A stretch of DNA of 10,567 nucleotides, taken from assembly GCA_023250585.1 (NCBI GenBank), contig JAHFAK010000085.1, positions 1 to 10,567 on the forward strand, written 5' to 3'. Source of the DNA: Deltaproteobacteria bacterium. Lineage in GTDB: Bacteria; Bdellovibrionota_F; JAHFAK01. This document shows, piece after piece, positions 2,034-9,809 of this stretch (position 1 is its first letter; each line of letters starts with the position of its first letter). The notes beneath the pieces were generated by a model. The model was not told the origin of the DNA. It saw nothing but the letters and a program-made list of their open reading frames with translations, and did no database searches. Both the position numbers and the translations under genes were made by a program.

Positions 2034-2039
2034 CTCCTT
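2034..2039 (-). promoter_or_regulatory. Shine-Dalgarno site fixing the parB start
   Basis: AAGGAG on the minus strand, 6 bases before the ATG at 2027. Its first base is the last base of the parA stop codon, so parA and parB are probably translationally coupled. Confidence 0.8.
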
Positions 2040-2827
2040 CATAGGTGGACGTCTTTCCGTTCTTTTTGTTCTCGCGCTATTATTTCATACGCTAAATTCA
2101 AATAGCTACGCGAGCCCATTGAATCAGCAGCGTACGTTAAGACCGGCTTACCAAAACTTGGCGCTTCGGTTAATTTAATATTACGAGGAATGATAGTTTG
2201 AAAAACTTTATCTTTTAAATGAGCGGTAACATCATTGACGACTTGATGACAGAGATTGTTACGAGTATCAAACATCGTCAGGAGTATACCTTCGACGCGT
2301 AAATGAGGATTAACATCATTTTGAACATTCATAATTGTTTTAATCAATTGCGCCAAACCCTCCATTGCATAATATTCACACTGCAAGGGAATAATAACTG
2401 AATCTGCTGCTGCAAGAGCATTCATGGTAAGAATTCCCAGAGACGGAGCACAATCAATAAAAATATAGTCATAAGAATTATTAATATTCCTCAATGCTTT
2501 AAGCAATAATCGTTCGCGCGATTCCTTGTTGAGTGAGCCAGCTTCCATGCCAATCAACTCTTCTGTGGTAGGAATAATATCAAAATAATCAAGATTTGTG
2601 CGCGTAATAACATTTTCAATTGGATGATCATTGAGTAAAACATCAACGATGGTATAGGGTAATGTCCCCTTTTTTATACCTACACCGGACGTAGAATTGG
2701 CTTGGGGATCGAAATCAATGAGTAGAACCCGTTTTTCGCTTGCTGCAATAGAAGCGCTGAGATTAATAGCAGTTGTTGTCTTACCAACACCGCCCTTTTG
2801 ATTTGCGATTGCAATAATTTTTGCCAT
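2039..2827 (-). CDS. parA: Chromosome partitioning ATPase ParA (Soj type)
   Basis: A 262-residue deviant-Walker P-loop ATPase. ATP-bound dimers coat the nucleoid and pull ParB-parS complexes. The deviant Walker A KGGVGKTT is at residues 11-18 with the signature first Lys. LIDFDPQANST (36-46) is the A' motif and FIDCAPSLG (123-131) is Walker B. The protein starts directly with MAKIIAIANQKGG and has no N-terminal HTH domain, so it is the small chromosomal Soj type rather than a plasmid P1-like ParA. The start at 2827 fits this conserved N-terminus. The frame stays open 31 codons further upstream, but that extension is hydrophobic, unlike the family, and runs into rlmN. No Shine-Dalgarno is visible, and the predicted promoter lies so close that the mRNA may be nearly leaderless. 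It is the first gene of the par operon. Confidence 0.97.
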   Translation of the reverse strand: MAKIIAIANQKGGVGKTTTAINLSASIAASEKRVLLIDFDPQANSTSGVGIKKGTLPYTIVDVLLNDHPIENVITRTNLDYFDIIPTTEELIGMEAGSLNKESRERLLLKALRNINNSYDYIFIDCAPSLGILTMNALAAADSVIIPLQCEYYAMEGLAQLIKTIMNVQNDVNPHLRVEGILLTMFDTRNNLCHQVVNDVTAHLKDKVFQTIIPRNIKLTEAPSFGKPVLTYAADSMGSRSYLNLAYEIIAREQKERKDVHL

Positions 2828-2840
2828 ACAGTATACAGGT

Positions 2841-2869
2841 ATAGTAATTTTAAGGCTTGGTAAAATCAA
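2841..2869 (-). promoter_or_regulatory. Predicted sigma-70-type promoter for the parA operon
   Basis: Read on the minus strand, TTGATT (2869-2864) is followed after exactly 17 bases by TACTAT (2846-2841). Transcription would begin about 7 bases later, only a few bases before the parA ATG at 2827. It overlaps the candidate rlmN promoter on the other strand, so the two could compete. Confidence 0.5.
2858..2866 (+). promoter_or_regulatory. Candidate extended -10 promoter for rlmN
   Basis: TGG followed by TAAAAT forms an extended -10 element (TGn plus a 5/6 match to TATAAT), about 24 bases before the rlmN ATG. I see no convincing -35, which extended -10 promoters can do without. A purine-rich AGAAGAG at 2871-2877 could bind the ribosome but is about 12 bases from the start. 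Confidence 0.4.
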
Positions 2870-2889
2870 GAGAAGAGTAAAAATAAAGT

Positions 2890-3936
2890 ATGGAAAATAA
2901 TAATCTTTTAAATTTTTCATTAGAAGAACTGGGCGGACTGATTTCTGGTGAGAAAACTGAAAACTATAGAGTCAAACAAGTCTTTCGTTGGTTACATCAA
3001 AAATTGGCAACTGATTTTTCTGAAATGAGCGATTTAGGAAAAGCGCTCCGAGAAGATTTGCAAAAACGCTTTGTCATTTTCTACCCAACTATCCAGAAAA
3101 TTCAAAAGTCTAAAGATGGCACACATAAGTTTCTTTTTCGCCTTCATGATGGTCACTCTATTGAAGCGGTTTATATTCCTGAAAAGAAGCGAAACACCGT
3201 TTGTCTCTCAAGCCAAGTAGGGTGCGCTCTCGGCTGTACCTTTTGTTTAACCGCACAGATGGGGTTTTTACGGAACTTAGAACCTTACGAAATAATAACT
3301 CAATTGTATCTCATTAAAAAAGAACTACGCCTCCCCCGTATTTCAAATATAGTTTTCATGGGTATGGGAGAGCCTCTCTTGAATCACAAAAACGTTATCC
3401 AGGCGATCAAGTTGCTTGTCTCTGATTTTGGACAAGGAGTATCGAGTAGACGTATTACTGTTTCAACGGCTGGTGTTGTCAAAAATATAGAACCACTACT
3501 TACCGAAACAAAAGTCAGCATCGCCCTTTCATTAAATGCCACAAAAGATTCATTACGCGATACAATCATGCCGATTAACAAAAAGTATCCTATTCAAATG
3601 CTGATTGAAACATTACAAAATCTTCCTTTACCAAAAAGACGACGAGTGACAATCGAATATGTACTCATTAAAGATGTCAATGACACGCTCGAAGATGCGC
3701 AACGCCTCGTTCGACTCTTGAGCAAAGTTCGTGCGAAAGTAAATCTTATTCCGTATAATGAAAATCCCTATATCTCAATGAACGCCCCTCACCTCAAAAG
3801 AATCGATGAATTTCATTCGTATTTAATCGAAAAACATATAACTACAATGATCCGCAAACAACGCGGCCTTGATATTCTAGGGGCTTGTGGTCAATTGCGT
3901 GTCACGGAAAACCAAAAGGTGGGGACCGACTCATGA
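2890..3936 (+). CDS. rlmN: 23S rRNA (adenine2503-C2)-methyltransferase RlmN, radical SAM
   Basis: A 348-residue radical SAM enzyme that methylates C2 of A2503 in 23S rRNA (and A37 of some tRNAs), supporting peptidyl-transferase accuracy. The N-terminal helical RNA-binding part (1-95) has the typical RVKQVFRWLHQK. The 4Fe-4S motif C-x3-C-x2-C is C112, C116 and C119, within SSQVGCALGCTFCLTAQMGF. C105 matches the conserved Cys upstream of the cluster, and C333 in ILGACGQL matches the catalytic Cys that carries the methyl group. GMGEPLLN (SAM binding) and LIPYNE also fit. Cfr has a similar core, but the GACGQL ending and housekeeping context favour RlmN. The last seven residues, QKVGTDS, and the TGA lie inside the left arm of an inverted repeat and are not family sequence, so the original terminus has been replaced or extended. 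It diverges from parA across 62 bases. Confidence 0.96.
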   Translation: MENNNLLNFSLEELGGLISGEKTENYRVKQVFRWLHQKLATDFSEMSDLGKALREDLQKRFVIFYPTIQKIQKSKDGTHKFLFRLHDGHSIEAVYIPEKKRNTVCLSSQVGCALGCTFCLTAQMGFLRNLEPYEIITQLYLIKKELRLPRISNIVFMGMGEPLLNHKNVIQAIKLLVSDFGQGVSSRRITVSTAGVVKNIEPLLTETKVSIALSLNATKDSLRDTIMPINKKYPIQMLIETLQNLPLPKRRRVTIEYVLIKDVNDTLEDAQRLVRLLSKVRAKVNLIPYNENPYISMNAPHLKRIDEFHSYLIEKHITTMIRKQRGLDILGACGQLRVTENQKVGTDS

Positions 3937-4013
3937 ACACATTTAGTAAAAATCATGTCTGATAATATAGTGCCCCCTACTAAATGTGTTCATGAGTCGG
4001 TCCCCACCTTTTG
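3913..4013. repeat. Perfect 36-bp inverted repeat (REP/BIME-like) capping two convergent genes; likely bidirectional terminator
   Basis: Arms 3913-3948 and 3978-4013 are perfect reverse complements over 36 bases, separated by a 29-base spacer (3949-3977). Each arm, read outward-in from its own gene, gives the same codons (CAA AAG GTG GGG ACC GAC TCA TGA). It therefore ends both rlmN and the SRPBCC gene with QKVGTDS and a TGA. The stem includes a GC-rich block GGTGGGGACCGAC flanked by AAAA on one side and TTTT on the other, so on either strand the transcript can form a strong hairpin followed by a short U run. The architecture resembles two head-to-head REP units (a BIME). Whether it is repeated elsewhere in the genome cannot be told from this window. 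Confidence 0.9.
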
Positions 4014-4598
4014 AACACGATCGCGAATGACTTGAATAATTTCACCGAGTGTTTGATCCGTGAGAATATTAATAACAAAATCAGGAATAATGGTATCCGG
4101 CTCTGTGAAAAGTGTATAAATTGCTTTGGTTTTGCCCTTTTTATAGTGTTCCAATTTCCAACTGCCGCGTACTTCTTTAACATTTTTTCCGGTTCCGGGA
4201 ACTAAATCCCAGGTAATAGTAAAATGTTTTTTATCATGTACAAGAGCTATTTCATAACTGACATTTCCGAATAGCAAAGGAATTATAAGCTCGCTATAGA
4301 AATATACGGTATTGGCAATACGATCAGTTACTATACTTACCGCTGTTCTCGGCATAAAATCTTTGTAATGCGCATAATCGGTGATAACATCCCAAACCGC
4401 TTCGCGTGGAGCATCTATAATTCCTATAGCCATTGCCTCTCGAAGATTAGTTCCTTGAATGGCTTTTGATCTTTTAATAATTCCATTCGATCGCAAGATA
4501 GTTTGTTCGGATGGTGTGAGTTTGAATACCTCAGACGAAGCCATTGCGCAGGAAAAAAATATTGCCCATATAACAATAGTTTTTGCAATGAAAGCCAT
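3990..4598 (-). CDS. Exported SRPBCC/START-like protein (polyketide cyclase / COQ10-type fold)
   Basis: A 202-residue protein with a Sec-type N-terminus: Lys6, a hydrophobic stretch 7-16, and a likely cleavage after AMA (18-20). A Cys at 17 is badly placed for a lipobox. Residues about 55-195 look like an SRPBCC (START/Bet v1-like) hydrophobic-ligand-binding domain. They have the A-P-R-E-A-V-W-D-V-I-T-D-Y-x-x-Y-x-x-F-M-P opening typical of polyketide cyclase/dehydrase and COQ10-like proteins, then alternating beta strands and a long C-terminal helix (172-196). A ligand cannot be named. AAGGA lies 9 bases before the ATG and overlaps the amidase stop, so it is probably coupled to that gene. It is the last gene of the elbB-kinase-amidase operon. 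Its final seven residues, QKVGTDS, and the stop are supplied by the right arm of the 36-bp inverted repeat, and rlmN ends the same way. Confidence 0.85.
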   Translation of the reverse strand: MAFIAKTIVIWAIFFSCAMASSEVFKLTPSEQTILRSNGIIKRSKAIQGTNLREAMAIGIIDAPREAVWDVITDYAHYKDFMPRTAVSIVTDRIANTVYFYSELIIPLLFGNVSYEIALVHDKKHFTITWDLVPGTGKNVKEVRGSWKLEHYKKGKTKAIYTLFTEPDTIIPDFVINILTDQTLGEIIQVIRDRVQKVGTDS

Positions 4599-4610: not shown

Positions 4611-5762
4611 TTATGGATCAAGCTTTTCAGTATATTCAGAACTTGGCACATAATTTTTCAAATATTTTATATGTTGTTCAAGGCGAGCTCGATCATCAAT
4701 GAGTTTAAAACATAGTATCAGATAATAATACACTTCATCCACATGTTCATGCACCGGTAATATACGTAAAGAGTGGTTCAGAGCCTCAATCGCTTTTTGA
4801 ACTGTTATCTGAAACTTCTCATAGTTATTATTTTTTTGATGATCCAATGCCTGATTATAGAGTTTTTTTCCTTCTTTAATATAACCACTCCATTCCGTAC
4901 CATCAGATACATTATTAAACAAATACGGTTTTGGATGAATGTTATTATCTTTTTTATTGTTCCCTTGTAGATATAATTCATGGCAACCTGGCCCAAAAGA
5001 TTTTTTATCTTCGAGGACAATAACCTTTTTGAAAATATTAAGTTTATGAGGCACAGATTTACCATTAATGAATACCCGCAAAGAATCATCTTTAAAATGC
5101 GCGCCTCCAAAACCATCATCAAGTTCAATAATAATGTCTTGGTCATCATCAGAAGATATCAGCTTATAGTTAGGCAAACCATTTTCAAAATACCCCATAA
5201 TTGCTTCTTTATAGCATTGTGCTTCTTTTTCAATAGAGTCATCTCTTTGTAAAAGTAATTCATTTTTTTGATGCGAAAGAAATGAAGCTTCTCCAATAAC
5301 TGCAGGGATGATATCTTTGAGACTGCGAAGCACATGAAATCCACTGGGAAAAACAAGATAGTCTGAATATACACATGCAGAAAGCTTAAGACGTTTTTGA
5401 AAATAAAATGCAAGATACGAAGCAAAATCAACGCTTGCGGGATTACCAAGAGCATTTTTATGAAAATAAACAATCGAATAATTGAGCGATCTATCTTGCG
5501 CTACTGAATGATGAATCGATACGAATAAATCTGCTTTTGCTTTGAGCGCAATGTCAACACGTTCTTGTAATTCGACAAACCGATCATCTCGTCGAGTTAG
5601 GATTACTTCAATATCTTCATCCGCTAAAAGTTTTTCAAGAGCAAGAGCGACACGAATATTTACTTCTTCTTCACGAAGTCCATACTCGCCTTCACGAAAA
5701 AAATCAGTTCCCTTTGTTCCGCCGTGACCTGGATCAATACATACTGTTATTTTTTGTTCCAT
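4611..5762 (-). CDS. N-acetylmuramoyl-L-alanine amidase (Amidase_3) with C-terminal beta and helical regions, no signal peptide
   Basis: The first ~195 of 383 residues are an AmiA/B/C-type zinc amidase domain, which cuts the bond between muramic acid and L-Ala in peptidoglycan. Visible landmarks are IDPGHGG with zinc ligand H13, an acidic cluster LREEEVNI (E31-E33, one being the zinc-ligand Glu), SIHH with ligand H84, and the catalytic-Glu motif GEASFLSH (E158). Residues about 205-275 look beta-rich, and 293-375 are helical and TPR-like. No signal peptide or membrane segment is present. None can be recovered by an upstream start, because TGA lies in frame at 5771-5769. Most relatives are periplasmic, so either export is non-standard or the enzyme acts in the cytoplasm. 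The canonical SIHAN is SIHHS here. The gene starts 9 bases after the kinase stop, with only a weak GAG upstream, and is likely co-translated with it. Confidence 0.88.
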   Translation of the reverse strand: MEQKITVCIDPGHGGTKGTDFFREGEYGLREEEVNIRVALALEKLLADEDIEVILTRRDDRFVELQERVDIALKAKADLFVSIHHSVAQDRSLNYSIVYFHKNALGNPASVDFASYLAFYFQKRLKLSACVYSDYLVFPSGFHVLRSLKDIIPAVIGEASFLSHQKNELLLQRDDSIEKEAQCYKEAIMGYFENGLPNYKLISSDDDQDIIIELDDGFGGAHFKDDSLRVFINGKSVPHKLNIFKKVIVLEDKKSFGPGCHELYLQGNNKKDNNIHPKPYLFNNVSDGTEWSGYIKEGKKLYNQALDHQKNNNYEKFQITVQKAIEALNHSLRILPVHEHVDEVYYYLILCFKLIDDRARLEQHIKYLKNYVPSSEYTEKLDP

Positions 5763-5771
5763 ACATACTCA

Positions 5772-8700
5772 TTACTTAAAATTCTCTTCTATTTTTTTTA
5801 AAACATCTTTTGCATTTAAACGCTCGGCAAGCATTTTCGCATCAGCGACAAGCGTTTCAATTTTTTTCTTATATTTCTTACTATTTTCTTCATGATAAAG
5901 TAACGCTAAAAAAAATTGCGCCTTCAGCACTCCTTCTTGCGCATCTAACTTTTGTGCCTCTACTAAAAATCCTTCAAGCATTTTTATTCCTTTTTTACGA
6001 CCTCTCGTATGGTAATCAAAATAGGTCAAAAAGATATCATTATACAGCATACCAATTTTCCAACTAATATCATCTGATATTTTTTTCGACATGATAAAAG
6101 CTTTCTTTGCTTCGTCTAGGGATTCTTGCATAAAAAAAATATTTCCTAAATTATAGTAATTAACGCTCTCGCCCCAACGATCCGATATTTGCTGGGTTAT
6201 ACTGATTGATTTCTCACAAAATTCTCGTGCGCGAGCGTAATTTTCTTCAGTGTAATAGATCTCTACAATATTTCCTAATGTAACTCCCATCCCATATTTA
6301 TCGTTAATTTTTTCTTTATAAGCAACAGACCTTTCAAGTGATTTTAGAGCTTCTGCAAGATTCCTTTTTTTTGTAAGAATAATGCCCCGATCATTTTCAA
6401 ATCGCCCAATTAAAAAATCATCCGAAAGACTCATTGCTTCTTTAAGGCCAGCTTCAATATATGTTAAAGCAGTATCGAATGCTCCTTTGAAATTATATAA
6501 ACTTCCAATCTCTCTTGTCAGTTCTGCTTGCAGTAATTTTAAACCTGCTTGTGTTGCAATCTGAGTCGCATCGGTAAAATATTGTAATGCGAGATCGAGT
6601 TCTCCTTTTATTTTGTAAAATCTTCCGAGTGTTTTTATAGAAAGTGTATGAAGTTCCGTATCGTTAATTGATTCCGCTTTTTCAATTGCTTTATGCGCAT
6701 ATTTTATACCTTCTTCCCATTTTCCAATGAGCTGATAAATACTTGCAATTTTTTGATAGATAACTCCTTCTTTTCTTAAACGCACTGATTCTCTCAACTT
6801 TAGCGTTCCAGCATATATTTCGAGCGTCTTGAGAATCTGCTCATAACTTTTAATTGCATCTTCGTTAGCATAATTTTTTGTTTGTCTATCTCCGACGAGC
6901 TCTAAATAGTGAATTTCTTTTTCGAAACATTCTGCTTTATGGAAATGATGAACAAGCGCATTGTAATAATCGTCAATACGGTCGTAGAAAAGATCTTCGA
7001 TAGCTTCACCAACGAGTCGATTATAATTTTTTTTATCGTCATCTGAAGTTAACTTGCTCATCGACTCATAAAGCATCATATGTTTAAAAAGATATTCAGG
7101 CTCACTCTTTTCTGGATCGAGTCGCAGTAAATCTTCTGCCAAGAGTGTGGCAAGCGATTCATCAAGATTAAAGGCAAGCTCTGCACGCAAGTTCTCATCT
7201 TTAGAAATCATTTTTTCCAAAATGTCATAGCGAAAATTTTTTCCAATACATGCAGCAACTGAGAGTAGACGCTTGTCTGTTGCCTCTAACCCTTCGATTC
7301 GTGTAGTAAAAATATCTTCTAATGTTTTGGGAAGTGTTAATGTAGAAAGAATATCTTTTTGAGAAAGATCTTTAATCCCAATTAATTTTTTACTTATTTC
7401 TTCAATAAAAAGTGGATTCCCATCCGCGCGTAAAAGTAATTCTTTTTTTAATTTTGCTGCAGTATCTAACTTCGGAATCAGGGTAATAAACATTTTTTCT
7501 GCTTCGCTTTTCGATAAAGCAGGAAATGTATACTCTTTCAGATTCGGCAACAAAGGCTTTTTGCCTTCTGCGTTTCGCATAATATAGATTAAAAAAAGAT
7601 TTATTTTTGTTACGTCCTTGAGAATTGAAGCTAGAGCTTCGAGCGATGCTGGATCTATCCATTCGCTATCATCAATAATATAAAGAACTGTATCTTTTTC
7701 TGAGAGGCGAATGAAAAAATCTTTGATGACACGAAGGAGTTCTTTCTTACGCTCTTCTCCTTCAAGATATTGAGTATCACTACCGGGGAATTCCACTCCG
7801 AGAATACTTCCCAAAAGATGAATATCGTGATCCTTTAATGAATATTTTTTCAGATGTAGCAACTTAGTGCGAATTAATCCATCTGAATCGCTATCTTTGA
7901 TACCGACAATTTGTTTGAGTAATTCTGCGATGACTGAATAAAGGGAATTTTTTTTGAATGTTTGCTCAAGCTCAGGTTTTGCAGAAACATAATAAGATTT
8001 TTCGTGTTTTTGAAGCATCATAAATTCACGAACGAATCGAGACTTACCAAGGCCAAGAGTACCTTGCAGCGCAAAGGCTTTTCCCAAGTGAGAATTTTGT
8101 ACTTCCTTAAAAAACTTACTAAAATCAAGGAGCTCATTTTTTCTACCAATAAATGCAGTTTTATATTCGATTCTTTTTGTTGTAATTCTTTGTTTTTTTC
8201 TTCTCTCAAGCGCTTCATAATATTTTTCACTTTTTCCACGAAAGAGAAAACTTCCTTTCTCTTTAAATTGAAATCCAGCGTCTTTATAATTTTCGATAGA
8301 TTGCGTAGCAGTAATTACATGATCACGGCTGTATTCAAGCAATGTTTTTGCTCGTTCCACTGGATCACCACTGATGGTAAATGAGCTGATATCTTTTACG
8401 GTTCGATCAACAACAACGACTCCCTGATCAATAGTTATTTTAAGATCAATAGACATATGAAGTTCTTCTTCAAAGGATTGTAATTCATTCAGAATAGAAA
8501 AGGCAGTAATCATCGTCCGAAGCGCATCATCATCTCGAATGTGTGGAATACCAAAAACCACTCCAATACTGCGGCTCGAAAGTTCTGTGATACTTCCTCC
8601 ATAACGATAGATAGTATCCATTATCTTTTTCAACAGCTCATTGGTAATAGATTGAAAATGTTCTTGTGCTAATTCTTTTCCATCGTGATCAGTAATTGTT

Positions 8701-9809
8701 GTAAATGCTACATAAAAGACAAAAGCTTTTTTAGTTTGCGCGATCTCTTTATAGCCCTTCTTAATAATTTTTGTTCCGCCGTCATCGGGTTTTTCTTCCA
8801 ACTCTTTTTGAGTCTTTCGATCTCTAACGATTGTTCCTTCTACTGCTTCTTCCTGCTTTTCAACACCACTGCTCTGTTTATTTTTTTCTTCTCGGAGTTC
8901 AAAAAAAGTTTTGAAGAATTCCAAAAATCGGTCTTTTACATTTTGAATTCCTTCACTCATTATATAATCAGAAAGAGCCTGTGCAAAAACGTTTGCTCGA
9001 GAAAAACGCTCTTCTTTATTTCTGGCTAGGGCTTGTTTAATAATAGTATCAATTGAATCTTTTGCATGAGGAATATAATCACGAAGCGGTTTAAAATGTA
9101 CTTCTTTAATTGCTGTCAGTGTATCTTCATCTTTGTCATACGCAAAAGGATTTTTATAGGTAAGAAGCTCATAGAGAACAATACCCATAGAGAAAATATC
9201 TGAATAAAAATCTACTTCTCTATATTCAACTTGTTCAGGAGAAGCATAACGGAGTTTCCCGACAAATACTCCTTCTTCTTCCTTTTGCATCGTTGACTTG
9301 GCAACACCAAAATCAATAAGCTTAATTTTACCATCATAGGAGACTAAAATATTTGCAGGACTAATATCCCGATGAACAATTGAGAGGCTTGTATTTCGTG
9401 GATCATTTTTATGATGGATGTAATCAAGCGCACCACATACTTCGCTTATAATATAGATCGAAACTTCTTCAGGAATTTTTGGTCCTTCCTCGTTTGTTTC
9501 TCTCATGATTATTCGTAAATCTGATCCATGAATATACTCCATGGCAATGAAGTGCTTGTCTTTTATTTTTCCATGATCAAAAACTTTGATAACATTTGGA
9601 TGGTCAAGACTCCCCGACAGAATTGCTTCGCTTTTGAAAAGTTCAACAATATCTTTTTCATCAGCATAGATTGGTCGGACTGTTTTAATGGCGATAAGCT
9701 TCTCATATCCATCAGCCCCAAAGCTTTTCGCTTTATAAATTTCGCCGAGACCGCCGGTTGCGATCTTATCGATTATAAGATATTTGCCAAATATTTTTGG
9801 TTTGAACAT
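5772..9809 (-). CDS. Multidomain Ser/Thr kinase - degenerate cyclase-like domain - P-loop ATPase - TPR protein
   Basis: A 1345-residue soluble signalling protein with no membrane segment seen. Residues 10-285 form a Hanks-type kinase that looks active: TGGLGE loop (18-23), K42, E61, HRD catalytic loop with D148 and N153, DFG (167-169) and SPE (190-192). A polar charged linker runs 305-355. Residues 362-536 resemble a class III nucleotide cyclase domain (RYGG, VVFG, a DDALR helix, a SGDPVERA segment). The two metal-binding Asp positions and the VNxAAR-like catalytic Asn/Arg appear replaced, so it is probably inactive. Residues 552-830 are an AAA/STAND-like ATPase, with Walker A GTLGLGKS (583-590), Walker B LYIIDDSEW (709-717) and a LLRADGNPLFIEE sensor-like segment (791-804). 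From about 960 to 1335 it is helical TPR-type repeats. The plan combines PknK-like kinase-ATPase-TPR proteins with cyclase-ATPase-TPR proteins. It lies 18 bases after elbB and 9 before the amidase. No Shine-Dalgarno is evident. Confidence 0.93.
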   Translation of the reverse strand: MFKPKIFGKYLIIDKIATGGLGEIYKAKSFGADGYEKLIAIKTVRPIYADEKDIVELFKSEAILSGSLDHPNVIKVFDHGKIKDKHFIAMEYIHGSDLRIIMRETNEEGPKIPEEVSIYIISEVCGALDYIHHKNDPRNTSLSIVHRDISPANILVSYDGKIKLIDFGVAKSTMQKEEEGVFVGKLRYASPEQVEYREVDFYSDIFSMGIVLYELLTYKNPFAYDKDEDTLTAIKEVHFKPLRDYIPHAKDSIDTIIKQALARNKEERFSRANVFAQALSDYIMSEGIQNVKDRFLEFFKTFFELREEKNKQSSGVEKQEEAVEGTIVRDRKTQKELEEKPDDGGTKIIKKGYKEIAQTKKAFVFYVAFTTITDHDGKELAQEHFQSITNELLKKIMDTIYRYGGSITELSSRSIGVVFGIPHIRDDDALRTMITAFSILNELQSFEEELHMSIDLKITIDQGVVVVDRTVKDISSFTISGDPVERAKTLLEYSRDHVITATQSIENYKDAGFQFKEKGSFLFRGKSEKYYEALERRKKQRITTKRIEYKTAFIGRKNELLDFSKFFKEVQNSHLGKAFALQGTLGLGKSRFVREFMMLQKHEKSYYVSAKPELEQTFKKNSLYSVIAELLKQIVGIKDSDSDGLIRTKLLHLKKYSLKDHDIHLLGSILGVEFPGSDTQYLEGEERKKELLRVIKDFFIRLSEKDTVLYIIDDSEWIDPASLEALASILKDVTKINLFLIYIMRNAEGKKPLLPNLKEYTFPALSKSEAEKMFITLIPKLDTAAKLKKELLLRADGNPLFIEEISKKLIGIKDLSQKDILSTLTLPKTLEDIFTTRIEGLEATDKRLLSVAACIGKNFRYDILEKMISKDENLRAELAFNLDESLATLLAEDLLRLDPEKSEPEYLFKHMMLYESMSKLTSDDDKKNYNRLVGEAIEDLFYDRIDDYYNALVHHFHKAECFEKEIHYLELVGDRQTKNYANEDAIKSYEQILKTLEIYAGTLKLRESVRLRKEGVIYQKIASIYQLIGKWEEGIKYAHKAIEKAESINDTELHTLSIKTLGRFYKIKGELDLALQYFTDATQIATQAGLKLLQAELTREIGSLYNFKGAFDTALTYIEAGLKEAMSLSDDFLIGRFENDRGIILTKKRNLAEALKSLERSVAYKEKINDKYGMGVTLGNIVEIYYTEENYARAREFCEKSISITQQISDRWGESVNYYNLGNIFFMQESLDEAKKAFIMSKKISDDISWKIGMLYNDIFLTYFDYHTRGRKKGIKMLEGFLVEAQKLDAQEGVLKAQFFLALLYHEENSKKYKKKIETLVADAKMLAERLNAKDVLKKIEENFK

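Follow-up and report, generated by a model that had tools for sequence, protein, structure and literature searches.

A 101-bp palindromic repeat at the convergent ends of rlmN and an SRPBCC gene, very probably a TIR dimer of a RAYT-type transposase system

The window that we have analysed, i.e. the whole stretch of 10,567 nucleotides from a deltaproteobacterial assembly (GenBank GCA_023250585.1, contig JAHFAK010000085.1), contains two convergent genes whose products both end in the residues QKVGTDS, followed by a TGA stop codon; the two proteins belong to the families RlmN and Polyketide_cyc (SRPBCC), which are unrelated according to Pfam. The question that this locus raises is how two unrelated proteins have come to share the same end. 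A preliminary description of the window had attributed the shared end to a perfect 36-bp inverted repeat, and our inverted-repeat search of the window agrees with it: the arms, located at 3913-3948 and 3978-4013, are 100% complementary, are separated by a 29-nt spacer and constitute the top-ranking inverted repeat of the whole window, while in dinucleotide-type shuffles no nearby inverted repeat of at least 14 bp has been found. The whole dimer, located between the two convergent genes, measures 101 bp, and the features of the junction are the following:

2890..3936, plus strand: rlmN (RlmN_N and Radical_SAM, Pfam); its 3' end enters the left arm
3913..3948, plus strand: left arm, a repeat unit of TIR type whose outer edge lies at 3913
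3913..3936, plus strand: rlmN codons QKVGTDS and TGA stop, derived from the element; tail missing from RlmN homologues
3949..3977, no strand: 29-nt spacer between the left and right arms
3978..4013, minus strand: right arm, an inverted copy whose outer edge lies at 4013
3990..4013, minus strand: SRPBCC-gene codons QKVGTDS and TGA stop, derived from the element; homologue ends differ, e.g. RLESGGTWKK
3990..4598, minus strand: SRPBCC (Polyketide_cyc, Pfam) protein gene with an N-terminal hydrophobic stretch; its 3' end enters the right arm

The first base of the arm is the entry point for both genes, with codon 342 of rlmN located at 3913 and codon 196 of the SRPBCC gene located at 4013. Read inward from the outside, the arm encodes QKVGTD(S/I)-stop in frame one and KRWGPT.E.I-stop in frame two, while frame three is open. 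Since one common frame of entry is all that a single palindrome requires, the two identical tails represent one event and not two; for one palindrome between convergent genes, a common frame is expected in about 1/3 of cases, and the particular frame seen here in 1/9. The right arm's match to the family consensus extends into the right part of the spacer, AGTGCCCCC, and the left arm departs from that consensus beyond position 36. Elsewhere in the window, a 1345-aa ORF (5772-9809, minus strand) looks by eye like a Ser/Thr kinase with cyclase-, AAA- and TPR-like regions after it; the longest ParA ORF (2039-2920, minus strand) overlaps the start of rlmN at 2890 (plus strand), and its start as listed probably lies too far upstream, since the usual ParA start, MAKIIAIANQKGG, is located about 30 codons further in.

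The repeat is not confined to the window. With the use of a 45-nt sequence model, we have located 33 arms in the 2.24-Mb genome that contains the window and none in five other genomes, the only class-level relative among them; the core GTGGGGACCGAC has 29 exact and 7 one-mismatch matches in the same genome, versus 4 in a reversed control, and the 101-mer also has many matches there. A DNA search of 77 other genomes has returned no copy of the repeat, and a longer repeat pattern has no match in a collection of 84,980 species genomes, which possibly leaves out the records of this genome itself. The arms, whose family consensus is CAAAAGGTGGGGACCGACATATGAACTCATTTAGTAGGGGGCACT, occur both as monomers and as inverted dimers, the latter at six sites: the dimers at the window and on contigs C41, C22 and C88 span 101-123 bp, and those on contigs C47 and C113 span 50 bp. 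Thirty-three arms are few for a REP family, and the family is therefore easy to count. By a rough count, made by eye on a longest-ORF annotation, about 14 of about 24 sites are located at most 50 bp from the 3' end of a gene, and most sites are located between genes of the same direction.

The dispersal agrees with the REP/BIME-type element that had been proposed for this locus; the type has to be amended. Single arms fold barely better than shuffles (z from -0.6 to -1.15), while the dimer folds strongly (z -15.8 as DNA; -66.7 kcal/mol as RNA); GTGG is present within GGTGGGGACC with no foot hairpin to place it. Lacking a stable hairpin, the single arm belongs to the TIR type and not to the canonical GTAG REPs.

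The association with a RAYT gene located outside the window, which had also been anticipated, has been found: the window has no transposase gene, and a 224-aa Y1/HUH protein of RAYT type is encoded on contig C47 (L059:4515-5189). An arm lies on either side of its gene, at 4376 and at 5236, and the two make up a perfect 23-bp inverted pair (L059 4378-4400 and 5212-5234). This protein matches the NCBIfam model REP_Tyr_transpos (NF047646) with an E-value of 2e-18 and 66 bits, below the curated cut-off of 80, and its Pfam score of 20.7 is below the cut-off of 23; an alignment of 16 sequences, of which 14 come from other genomes, shows no variation at N65-H66-x-H68 or at Tyr125. A single-protein scan of the genome collection, in which the records of this genome were possibly left out, gave no match. 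Other genomes have 19 homologous transposase loci, most of them with inverted repeats of 16-28 bp around the gene, often edged GGGGTCAG; this corresponds to the published TIRtron/TIRYT architecture and its motif GGGGWSAS (PMC3733652). That motif is carried by some TIRs and is not obligatory in TIR systems; in the present arm, GGGGACCG fits it at 7/8 positions.

A second RAYT of the same genome (L109:1586-2239), 45% identical to the transposase on C47, adjoins a second repeat family, GACCGAAACGTGCCCGGCAACTTTCGGTC, which has 35 exact core matches (0 in the control; L109, L125-L140) and many inverted pairs about 36-103 bp apart, close to this RAYT; a PDB sequence search with the second RAYT has returned chance matches only. 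The second family also supplies a gene end, i.e. the end ..ENVPGNSR of an aldehyde dehydrogenase.

The shared tail is missing from the homologues of both proteins. RlmN homologues have variable tails after CGQL and none of them ends in VGTDS; SRPBCC homologues have RxRxExGG.WKK or a similar end at the place of QKVGTDS and, with the class relative (RLESGGTWKK) included, mostly stop a short way past the same helix, in different sequences. As the ends of the homologues differ and are variable, the element has most likely replaced dispensable last codons. Stop codons are supplied by 3 of about 33 arms, located at two sites: the window, with two of them, and the gene of a PilZ protein on contig C28, whose arm-supplied end is ..IHKSVPTL. 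The earlier proposal that the element spreads by landing at gene ends, with a tail and a stop codon, thus describes these two sites, but not the majority of copies, which are located beside genes without supplying a tail. One copy lies within a coding gene: the 50-bp dimer on C113 is located in frame within an AMP-binding acyl-CoA ligase (L070:1297-3048, minus strand), where, according to alignments to solved homologues, it adds ..KGGDQLMKSYVGPHL.. in the linker just ahead of the YTSGSTG motif.

Further copies have inner sequence in common. The copies on contigs C118, C39 and C87 have their inner 118 bases in common (at least 97%) and diverge outward of the outer edge of the arm; the copies on C54 and C45 have about 200 inner bases in common, with the divergence likewise starting from the outer edge. 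These boundaries coincide with CAAAAGG or are only a few bases away from it, and they indicate that arm-bounded segments have moved. No empty site has been found for the insertion in the window; the joined flanks leave rlmN without a nearby stop codon, so that either a small deletion or a change of sequence would have accompanied the insertion, or the earlier junction had another form.

Genes of toxin-antitoxin type are found repeatedly next to the repeat: arms adjoin MNT/HEPN and PIN-domain genes. An arm adjoins MNT/HEPN genes on C54 (L066 2360-3129); a shortened MNT/HEPN copy on C45 (L069 1893-2131) ends at the second repeat family; an arm on C66 (L077 116-898) adjoins a short ORF and a PIN-domain gene. 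The arm-bounded repeats with common inner sequence on C118 (L071 2334-2452), C39 (L072 1-118) and C87 (L076 2361-2625) are all cut by contig ends, and the longest of them, on C87, runs into the start of a Phd/YefM-like antitoxin (a weak match, under the curated cut-off). That the transposase also moves, in trans, repeat-bounded segments with toxin-antitoxin-type genes (C87/C118/C39, C66, C54/C45) is an unlikely proposal on present evidence; if true, a REP-type system would move small toxin-antitoxin cassettes.

On the grounds of the dispersed family and its dimers, the transposase gene between two copies, the boundaries at the outer edge, the strong folding of the dimer and the homologues that are free of the tail, we consider it very probable that the window contains a non-autonomous 101-bp TIR dimer of a RAYT-type Y1/HUH system, inserted between rlmN and the SRPBCC gene. 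Against this speak the transposase scores below the cut-offs, the search for an empty site, which found none, and the small number of arms. The mobiliser is probably the transposase on C47 (L059), which would most likely bind the TIR pair while it is folded as single-stranded DNA, moving the dimer in trans; the landing site would have been either the space between the two convergent genes or their overlapping ends, and the insertion would have replaced the last few dispensable codons of both. Both proteins then end in QKVGTDS-TGA because the element is palindromic and both genes enter it in the same frame.

Other origins of the shared end have been weighed against this insertion. Identical tails would also result from a simple inverted duplication that arose locally, at one gene's end, with no mobile family; this has next to no probability, as it is ruled out by the copy number: 33 dispersed copies have a common outer boundary, and two of them enclose a transposase gene. 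It is quite improbable that the arms were made identical locally, by gene conversion or hairpin-templated copying, rather than by the insertion of a ready symmetrical dimer. Gene conversion had been suggested in the preliminary description, and the arms of the window are identical at 36/36 positions, whereas those of most other dimers differ (C41 30/36, C22 31/36, C88 23/36, C113 21/25); the arms of the C47 dimer, however, are identical too (25/25), and the variant TCATGAACACA of the window arm is found again at C56, so that an ordinary recent subfamily copy suffices for the identity of the arms and gene conversion is not needed.

A further explanation, compatible with insertion, is that the palindrome, whatever its origin, has been kept as a useful bidirectional terminator or protector of mRNA 3' ends. 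The convergent position speaks for it, and so does the very stable RNA hairpin; REPs, moreover, are located predominantly between convergent or unidirectional ORFs, near 3' ends (PMC3733652). However, the A and T runs that had been placed on the outer sides of the repeat exist as runs of 4 nt only, located within the arms, and the stem is followed by only 4 T; a terminator consensus scan, which covers loops of 3-8 nt and is blind to the 29-nt loop here, has found no terminator-like site, and other copies are located upstream of genes, with one inside a gene. We regard such a retained function as possible, but doubtful.

The probable insertion of a TIR dimer between rlmN and the SRPBCC gene, in which a single palindrome would have rewritten two unrelated C-termini together, is a clean case of its kind. 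It shows how such repeats can occupy the ends of genes without costing them much, and it contributes a small TIR family, along with a candidate transposase, from an isolated bacterial lineage. The overlap of gene ends by repeats has already been published: REPs adjoin 3' ends, supply stop codons and occur inside ORFs (PMC3733652), and the Coxiella burnetii MITEs QMITE1 and QMITE2 overlap the C-terminal ends of functional genes, with EnhC gaining 33 residues (PMC5896051).

The closest resemblances are with TIRtrons/TIRYTs, i.e. TIR-associated tyrosine transposases with dispersed TIR families (Di Nocera et al. 2013; PMC3733652), and with REPINs, i.e. REP doublets that form hairpins (Bertels and Rainey 2011; PMC3116915). 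With the former, our system shares a Y1/HUH RAYT-like gene between inverted repeats other than GTAG REPs and the dispersed monomers and dimers, but its TIR sequence is new and its family of 33 arms is small and unmatched in the other genomes that were searched. With the latter, it shares two inverted units with a spacer, a total length of about 100 bp, a long hairpin and the RAYT link, but its single arm has neither a stable internal palindrome nor a foot hairpin at which a GTAG-type tag could be placed. QMITE1 and QMITE2 are likewise non-autonomous palindromes that lie over 3' gene ends and supply C-terminal residues, but their sequence differs (not compared base by base), and in the present genome a RAYT-type gene carries the ends of the present repeat. 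The Rickettsia palindromic elements (RPE; PMC3733652) resemble the C113 dimer of the acyl-CoA ligase in their in-frame insertion in coding genes, a likeness by description, with the sequences not compared, whereas the present repeat is mostly extragenic. Given that a single arm forms no stable hairpin by itself and that inverted repeats surround the RAYT genes, the element is best filed as a dimer that resembles REPINs and belongs to a RAYT system of TIR type (TIRtron/TIRYT).
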